From: Bacteroidota bacterium
Lineage (GTDB): Bacteria; Bacteroidota; Bacteroidia; B-17B0; Aurantibacillaceae
NCBI GenBank assembly: GCA_021155905.1
Contig: JAJNBG010000010.1
Span: forward strand, 1 to 64,000
Direction of reading: 5' to 3'
DNA length: 64,000 nucleotides
The position numbers and the translations under genes were made by a program. Positions 8,098 through 9,643 of this stretch are shown here, piece by piece. Under the pieces are notes generated by a model. The model had not been told where the DNA came from and did no database searches. It worked only from the letters and a program-made list of their open reading frames with translations. Numbering within the stretch: position 1 is the first letter of the stretch; the number at the start of each line of letters is the position of its first letter.

Positions 8098-8559
8098 CTA
8101 AAAATTTAGAAGATTCTCGTAAAATGGCACCTCTTTTATAATCTGAGGTCCTGTTGAATCCAGCTTCAAAAAAATATGCTGGAGTCCATTGCTTAGGAAA
8201 ACTGCCGGTACTTTTAGCTCCATATTGTAACGCAGTGCCTGGTTGATGGTTAACTGGTTAATCTCTATGCCTGGAGCTTTGCATTCAATAATCAACAAAG
8301 GCTTTAGGGCTGAATTAAATACCACAACATCAGTTCGCCGTTTGGTTTTATTTAAAATCAGTTGTTTCTCCACGGAAATCATCGAGGCCGGTACCTGCCG
8401 GTGATGTATGAGAAAATGAATGACATGCTGTCTTACCCACTCTTCGGGCGTAGCATCCACAAATTTTTTCCGAATGGAGTCAAATACCTGCAGAGTTCCT
8501 TTGTCGTTCTTCTGGAAACGGAATTCAACATCGGGAAAATTCAGGACAGGCAGGCTCAT
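8098..8559 (-). CDS. Orphan type I restriction enzyme HsdR N-terminal-domain (PD-(D/E)xK) protein
   Basis: EKQLILNKTKRRTDVVVFNSALKPLLIIECKAPGIEINQLTINQALRYNMELKVPAVFLSNG; 153 aa, no helicase, no adjacent hsdM/hsdS. Confidence 0.85.
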   Translation of the reverse strand: MSLPVLNFPDVEFRFQKNDKGTLQVFDSIRKKFVDATPEEWVRQHVIHFLIHHRQVPASMISVEKQLILNKTKRRTDVVVFNSALKPLLIIECKAPGIEINQLTINQALRYNMELKVPAVFLSNGLQHIFLKLDSTGPQIIKEVPFYENLLNF

Positions 8560-8635
8560 GGCGGCAAAGATAGTGGAAAATGTTTTTTACTTTATCACGA
8601 GTTATTAAGAGTATTGATGTTTTTTTATTGGGTTT

Positions 8636-8730
8636 GGCGTGCCCTTCGGGCCGGGCTTTCGGCACTCGCTTTTTTATTTGCCCTTTGGGACAAATAAAAA
8701 GAGCTCAAACAAAGCCTCAATCCCTCACGC
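8636..8730 (+). repeat. Structured multi-hairpin repeat element, copy A
   Basis: Outer stem GCGTG(8637-8641)/CACGC(8726-8730); hairpins CCC-ttc-GGG, GCCG-ggcttt-CGGC, TTTTTATTTG(8671-8680)/CAAATAAAAA(8691-8700). Confidence 0.65.
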
Positions 8731-8738
8731 GAATAGCA

Positions 8739-8860
8739 CACTAGAAGAGGAATGCAAGCGGAAATCCTTTTTTTGTGACTGAGATTTTGAAGTGCGAGAA
8801 AAGATTGTATCCGCCGGCTGGCGAACGGTTCCTGCTGTCTCTTTGCGGGAACGCCCCAAA
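8739..8860 (-). repeat. Structured repeat element, diverged inverted copy B
   Basis: Minus strand reads TTTGGGGCGTTCCC...GGCGGATACAATCTTTT...AAAAAGGATTTCCGCTTGCATTCC, same skeleton as copy A (TTTGGCGTGCCC...); stem GCGGA 8758-8762 / TCCGC 8810-8814. Confidence 0.55.
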
Positions 8861-8941
8861 ATGATAACAAAAAATTGACTTAATAATAATGTGATTAGGA
8901 GCAAATTCTTTTCGTACCTTCACAGACTTAAAAAAAGAGAG

Positions 8942-9643
8942 ATGAAGACGAAAGCAGAAATAAATTTTGGTGGCTACGTGAAAATGTTTGCAGAGTGGAA
9001 TGGAGTAGAAGTAGAAGGTATAGACCGACCTATGCAAACAGCAACGTTTGACGGGATCACCATTATCAACTTTAGTATGGGAAGCGCCATGGCAGCTACC
9101 ATCATGGATTTGTTAACGGCTATTGAACCCAAAGCGGTTTTGTTTTTAGGAAAATGCGGTGGCTTAAAAAAGAAGAACCAGATTGGTGATTTGATTTTAC
9201 CGATTGCAGCCATTCGTGGAGAAGGAACATCAAATGATTATTTCCCGAATGAAGTGCCAGCCTTACCATCTTTTAATTTACAAAAAGCAATTTCTTATAC
9301 TATCCGTTTAAGTGGACGTGATTACTGGACCGGAACAGTTTATACAACCAACCGGAGGGTTTGGGAACATGATGAGGCTTTTAAAGAATATTTACGGGTG
9401 ATTCGTGCAATGGCCATTGATATGGAAACGGCTACTATTTTCAGCGTTGGATTCCATAATGAAATACCGGTTGGTGCTTTATTGTTAGTGAGCGATCAGC
9501 CGATGATTCCAGAAGGAGTAAAGACTGAAGAGAGTGATAAAAAAGTAACGACTGATTTTGTGACTGACCACTTACAGATTGGAATCAACTCTTTGAAGGA
9601 ACTTCAGAAAGCAGGGATTTCAGTAAAGCATTTGAAGTTTTAA
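8942..9643 (+). CDS. amn: AMP nucleosidase
   Basis: MKTKAEINFGGYVKMFAEWNGVEVEGIDRPMQTATFDGITIINFSMGSAMAATIMDLL; LGKCGG; AIDMETATIF. Confidence 0.9.
   Translation: MKTKAEINFGGYVKMFAEWNGVEVEGIDRPMQTATFDGITIINFSMGSAMAATIMDLLTAIEPKAVLFLGKCGGLKKKNQIGDLILPIAAIRGEGTSNDYFPNEVPALPSFNLQKAISYTIRLSGRDYWTGTVYTTNRRVWEHDEAFKEYLRVIRAMAIDMETATIFSVGFHNEIPVGALLLVSDQPMIPEGVKTEESDKKVTTDFVTDHLQIGINSLKELQKAGISVKHLKF

Follow-up and report, generated by a model that had tools for sequence, protein, structure and literature searches.

An inverted pair of structured repeats between divergent genes

The window analyzed here, a 64-kb stretch of a Bacteroidota genome, contains an intergenic region rich in inverted sequence, which raises the question of whether it holds a mobile DNA element or a structured RNA. 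A sequence-only reading had proposed a BIME-like inverted pair of structured repeats and considered both a non-autonomous element mobilized in trans and a structured RNA plausible. A single structured repeat was found to occur there twice, as diverged copies that are inverted and arranged 3′ end to 3′ end, in agreement with the proposed pair. A covariance model (R1), built with a hand-drawn structure from seven aligned copies of the same genome, none of them from the window, gave exactly two matches across the 64-kb window: plus-strand copy A spans 8632-8730 (29.3 bits, E 9e-5), and minus-strand copy B spans 8743-8861 (22.5 bits, E 0.003). The second match corresponds to the diverged copy in opposite orientation that had been claimed from the letters. 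Copy A is a three-way-junction repeat of type 1, belonging to an ‘A-type’ subfamily (TTTCGGCACTCGCTTTTTTATT core). Copy B is a decayed type 2 repeat (TTGCAT tail) with a degraded outer stem, and its minus-strand sequence reads TTTTGGGGCGTTCCCGC...ACAATCTTTT...AAAAAAAGGATTTCCGCTTGCATTCC. The spacer between the two 3′ ends (8731-8742) is 12 bp long and has probably been shortened by deletion, since the usual spacer is 47-50 bp.

The flanking genes encode an HSDR_N_2 domain protein (8098-8559, minus strand) and a phosphorylase-superfamily protein (8942-9643, plus strand), and both lie outside the element. As these genes are divergent, the pair occupies their shared upstream region. Near the 5′ end of the phosphorylase-superfamily gene (8942-8980), ~63 bases are absent relative to the relatives seen; this is an in-frame loss of ~21 residues, where a congener (G009) reads ...GCAGAAATAGTAAACAACTGGTTACCACG...CTGACCAATTTTGGTGG.

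The DNA fold of copy A was better than all 200 shuffles (z -2.95). That of copy B was no better than shuffled sequence (z 0.37), and copy B is accordingly regarded as decayed. The subfamily of copy A has about 40 matches in the genus, with 76-98% identity, and copy A is 98% identical over 80 bp to a repeat on another contig (C46) of the window’s genome (G000). A 25-mer of copy B, AATGCAAGCGGAAATCCTTTTTTTG, is common to other family copies, and the orthologous sites of G007 and G009 hold copies that resemble copy B. Both window copies look old and decayed, and the pair is degraded and probably immobile.

Fold and covariation

Each copy comprises ~100 nt and forms a three-way junction. An outer stem (P1) encloses a hairpin (P2) and a long arm (P3); the arm has GGG paired with CCC at its base and bears a hairpin whose length varies. 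On the plus strand of copy A, P1 is formed by GCGTG (8637-8641) and CACGC (8726-8730), the latter being the 3′ end or ‘tail’ of the copy, and P2 by CCC-TTC-GGG (8642-8650). The P3 arm (8653-8724) has GGG (8653-8655) and CCC (8722-8724) at its base and carries the variable hairpin, in which TTTTTATTTG (8671-8680) pairs with CAAATAAAAA (8691-8700). The outer stem, the CCC-TTC-GGG hairpin, and the long arm had all been drawn correctly from the single sequence. A further hairpin proposed there, GCCG-ggcttt-CGGC (8650-8663), falls outside the family structure, as comparison of the copies favours pairing of GGG with CCC at the base of the long arm instead.

The expectation that the stems would covary was borne out for all four helices. 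The P1 stem appears in other copies as GTGTG/CACAC, GCGTA/TACGC, GCGTT/AACGC, and GCACA/TGTGC, and the double changes to GTGTG/CACAC and GCGTA/TACGC are visible in the raw sequences. Helix 2 (P2) varies on both sides at all six pairs in alignments A3, A4, A5, and A7, and helices 3 and 4, which make up P3, covary as well. The four alignments comprised 61, 113, 68, and 75 distinct copies. Paired cells amounted to 94.6-97.8%, compared with 74-85% in shuffles and 40-65% in slid-partner controls, and the observed covariation score was reached by 0 of 500 shuffles; the fitting of alignments A3-A7 to the model structure biases these values in its favour. Compensatory changes alone are not proof of selection, since template-switch repair of palindromes could also yield them.

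Family size and distribution

R1 matched at least 23 copies in the window’s genome, 31 in a relative (G056), and 73 and 118 in two congeners (G007 and G017, respectively). Matches were present in 48 of 79 related genomes, and many others had none. With a 25-base pattern, the family was found in genomes labelled Flavobacteriaceae, Chitinophagaceae, Sphingobacteriaceae, Cytophagaceae, and Bacteroidales. The sequence-only reading had associated the motif with intergenic regions of many Bacteroidota genomes, and the survey agrees. The proposal of a repeat family was to be abandoned if the sequence proved single-copy, lacked homologues, or showed no covariation; multiple copies, homologues, and covariation were all found.

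Within one genome, near-identical copies occur with unrelated upstream flanks. A plasmid or phage vehicle was considered and rejected, as there are essentially no family copies in either: phages gave no match, and plasmids gave only two partial unannotated Paraclostridium matches. Integron-like arrays in G007 were also rejected, as ordinary chromosomal genes lie between the copies. Several copies in this genome (L272, L273, L276, and L278) have a second palindromic repeat, ATACTTTTTGGCTGCAAAAAGTAT, just upstream of their 5′ end.

Pair geometry and end types

Inverted neighbours are nearly always tail-to-tail. For copies less than 400 bp apart, 33 neighbours were arranged tail-to-tail, 18 directly, and 1 head-to-head, and the tail-to-tail spacing peaked at 47-50 bp. 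Direct neighbours (16) outnumbered tail-to-tail ones (11) in G007. According to their 3′ ends, copies were assigned to type 1 (CAATCCC or CTATCCC; the window’s A-type belongs here) or type 2 (GCATCCC). Heterotypic pairs accounted for 37 of 46 classifiable pairs against 22.7 expected, a number reached by 0 of 20,000 shuffles, under a type rule that was picked after inspection of the pairs. Pairs of two A-type copies made up 0 of 16. The window pair is itself heterotypic, copy A being of type 1 and copy B of type 2.

Such inverted halves might also be read as the long terminal inverted repeats of a MITE, i.e., an internally deleted DNA transposon moved by a DDE transposase. A compact composite of ~250 bp with inverted ends and a non-conserved spacer would suit such an element, as would the outer inverted AATAATGTAGGTTTATTTTA common to some G017 units. 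However, the two ends differ in type more often than expected by chance, and each half has its own covarying three-way junction, which is unusual for MITE ends. Moreover, no full-length version whose ends enclose a gene was found, and no target-site duplication was seen by eye in the diverged flanks. A MITE origin is therefore improbable in our judgement. The AATAATGTAGGTTTATTTTA sequence was observed outside units L387, L389, L392, and L398 of G017, on both sides and inverted at L387, and perhaps marks an extended outer end or a preferred target.

Presence and absence at orthologous sites

The window locus was compared in 20 congeneric genomes, including the window’s own, all of which have the phosphorylase gene and keep both flanking genes wherever measured. 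According to R1, the pair is present in G000, G005, G009, and G017 and, with one half still recognisable, in G007, whereas the other 15 gave no match. The intergenic stretch is short in the genomes without the element that were measured. The tree of the flanking gene requires at least two gains or losses, with the carrier G005 being sister to the empty G019.

Those orthologous sites that could be compared between G000 and G009 were mostly occupied in both, indicating that insertion is slow or old. At several sites, one species carried a pair where the other had a single half, left or right, and singles were sometimes left in opposite orientation (L025, L027, L029, L030, and L038). At the fixed sites L020 and L021, P3 arms appear to have been exchanged. 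From the pair, half, and empty states at orthologous sites, together with the near-identical copies in unrelated flanks, we infer that pairs were inserted and then decayed to singles. The flanks at the compared sites were too diverged for a target-site duplication or an exact empty site to be resolved.

Relation to Flavo-1 and gene context

The sequence-only reading knew of no described function for the motif. The family is not undescribed, as its core arm matches Rfam RF01705 (Flavo-1) and the sequence family is thus partly known. A gathering-level Rfam scan of the window gave no match. A permissive scan of the short region matched RF01705 to both copies, each on the strand opposite to the repeat and below the 42-bit cut-off: copy A at 8645-8738 on the minus strand (19.3 bits) and copy B at 8760-8809 on the plus strand (21.9 bits). 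Typical family copies from other loci exceed the gathering score; the family therefore qualifies as Flavo-1, whereas the two window copies, with 19-22 bits, do not. In the window’s genome, 19 of 20 RF01705 matches coincide with R1 copies on the opposite strand, and 11 of the 12 matches that reach the cut-off are R1 copies. A Flavo-1 match was found in 45 of 299 genomes drawn from the phylum.

The P3 arm and the flanking motifs AGCGGAAAnCC and GATTGnAGCGG are common to Flavo-1 and the family described here, but the Rfam model has 76 nt and covers the P3 arm only, without P1 and P2. In G282, the single genome of genus g45 that was inspected, most of the 30 copies examined stand alone and have ends of the form TAGCCCCGAT...GCGGGATTAGCTCC, in contrast to the window type with its GGGCGTG/CACGC ends and its inverted pairs. 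Two of these 30 copies (L458 and L461) have ends of the GGGCG...ACGC type, and on this basis the window type is regarded as a sister form in the Flavo-1 superfamily. A copy of the other form was also observed in the window’s genome (L462, G000:C27:96743-96818; TAGCCCCGATAGAAGCGGCATCC...GCGGGAAATAGCTCC; 74.9 bits), where it was missed by R1. At another locus, a SAM riboswitch (L176:5937-6055, 70.5 bits) lies ~60 bp from a Flavo-1 match.

If Flavo-1 is a small structured RNA, the copies would be transcribed and act as sRNAs or 5′-UTR elements. Rfam types RF01705 as ‘Gene; sRNA’, and typical copies score above its gathering threshold. Flavo-1 was rated as probably RNA and probably not cis-regulatory by Weinberg et al. 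2010 (PMC2864571), and a 2022 review places it among the most abundant sRNA families, without a stated function (PMC9029176). On the modelled strand, G-U pairs and A-C mismatches numbered 46:16, 14:19, and 40:10 in three alignments; the G-U excess in two of the three mildly favours one strand, yet it is the opposite of Rfam’s. The numbers and arrangement of the copies point away from an RNA gene: they are dispersed with up to 118 per genome, are missing from many relatives, and form inverted heterotypic pairs that are hard to explain for such a gene. Furthermore, the transcriptome of Flavobacterium psychrophilum places Flavo-1 matches sense or antisense of transcribed regions indistinctly, with many outside them (PMC9723704).

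The gene context was analyzed for 182 copies for which a simple ORF finder had called a gene on both sides. These copies lie between tandem, convergent, and divergent genes in 102, 54, and 26 cases, respectively, compared with 211, 53, and 68 background intervals, which include the element-bearing ones. Within tandem intervals, 55 copies have the same direction as the genes and 47 the opposite one, i.e., there is no strand preference, and copies are not oriented relative to neighbouring genes. This context is as expected of an orientation-blind DNA element and not of a cis-regulatory RNA. The structured-RNA alternative of the sequence-only reading is weakened by the absent strand preference and the published transcriptome data (PMC9723704), and we consider it unlikely that the copies function as small RNAs. 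A BIME/REPIN-like DNA element fits the evidence better than an RNA gene. If the family is a DNA repeat, corrections are due in the annotation of many Bacteroidota genomes, and efforts to find an ‘RNA function’ are misdirected.

A proposed two-ended mobile unit

We think it likely, although well short of certain, that the window pair was inserted long ago as a non-autonomous, BIME/REPIN-like Bacteroidota repeat, mobilized in trans as a two-ended unit. The inserting unit would be a ~250-bp composite of a type 1 and a type 2 repeat, inverted, with their 3′ ends pointing inward ~48 bp apart. Folding would matter at the level of DNA, with each half folding on one strand once the DNA becomes single-stranded, and the most likely mechanism would be recognition of the folded halves as the two unit ends by an enzyme acting in trans. 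Decay may afterwards involve loss of one half, deletions in the spacer, and exchange of arms between copies.

Like enterobacterial REPs, BIMEs, and REPINs, the family is intergenic, dispersed, imperfectly palindromic, non-autonomous, and found in inverted pairs. Enterobacterial REP/BIME elements are built on a hairpin of 20-40 nt with a GTAG foot, whereas the repeats described here are ~100-nt three-way junctions with GGGCGTG/CACGC ends and no GTAG foot. The family also differs from REP/BIME and REPIN systems in that its halves are of different types and have no RAYT association. The sequence family is already known in part as Flavo-1. New are the nearly exclusive tail-to-tail arrangement of inverted neighbours with a 47-50 bp spacer, their heterotypy, the pair, half, and empty sites, and the lack of strand preference. 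As far as searches of open-licence papers show, neither the three-way-junction fold, nor the inverted unit with its unlike halves, nor the presence and absence of copies at orthologous sites has been described, and searches of these papers with the motif sequence returned nothing relevant.

Candidate mobilizing enzymes

Non-autonomous behaviour, as suggested by the sequence-only reading, is supported indirectly: the copies listed include no gene-containing, autonomous form, and no recurrent neighbouring gene suggesting a mobilizer was found next to them. The gene for the mobilizer may lie at another place in the genome or may have been lost.

An obvious candidate is a RAYT/TnpA-REP (HUH Y1) transposase, in which case the copies would be REPs and the enzyme a Bacteroidota RAYT of subclass 2.6. 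The inverted pairs resemble REPINs and BIMEs, and ‘atypical secondary structures’ have been reported to flank subclass 2.6 genes and to recur at other sites of the genome (PMC6006769). In addition, a weak family copy lies ~200 bp from the RAYT-like locus L107. However, the Y1_Tnp profile had no match in the window’s genome, which is 94% complete, or in seven others among the 17 genomes with at least ten copies; these eight (G000, G007, G010, G016, G019, G043, G056, and G063) each hold at least 11 copies. Copy number was not correlated with Y1_Tnp count (rho -0.11, p 0.33), and 19 of the 20 weakly matching RAYT-like loci (L102-L121) had no family copy nearby. The RAYT-like genes, which lie in relatives, were mostly accompanied by a different short hairpin, e.g., GCGGATTTGTAATCCGC followed by (A)GCGG. 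Hairpins of this kind plausibly correspond to the ‘atypical’ REPs described for RAYT subclass 2.6. The REP-like hairpins of this subclass (PMC6006769) share with the present family their occurrence in Bacteroidota as dispersed structured DNA, but those seen beside RAYT-like genes are of a short GCGGATT...AATCCGC type that is sequence-unrelated to it. Given the lack of Y1_Tnp matches in these genomes and the different hairpin at the RAYT-like loci, the RAYT-type mobilizer envisaged from the sequence is not supported, and mobilization by such an enzyme is very doubtful.

Returning to the trans-mobilized two-ended unit, we tentatively suggest, as a possibility for which the odds are somewhat unfavourable, that Flavo-1 may be a fragment of a distinct type of non-autonomous mobile DNA, with two different folded ends that are recognized as single-stranded DNA by a putative enzyme outside the RAYT/HUH Y1 group. 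The asymmetric unit, with its two end types, fixed spacer, and empty sites, provides a concrete handle on the mobilizing enzyme.

A single Y1 gene with a family copy 190 bp away (L101, in G062) was considered as a candidate and rejected, as it has the subclass 1.2 motifs DHIH...YIKNQKVHH and hairpins of its own. It was the sole clear match among 30 such Y1 loci. Y1 genes of subclass 1.2 are reportedly without typical terminal structures. At L101 (1020-1990), the subclass-1.2-like gene was observed among repeated hairpins, CAACCCCnGGGGTTG and GAAGTCCTTCGGACTTC.
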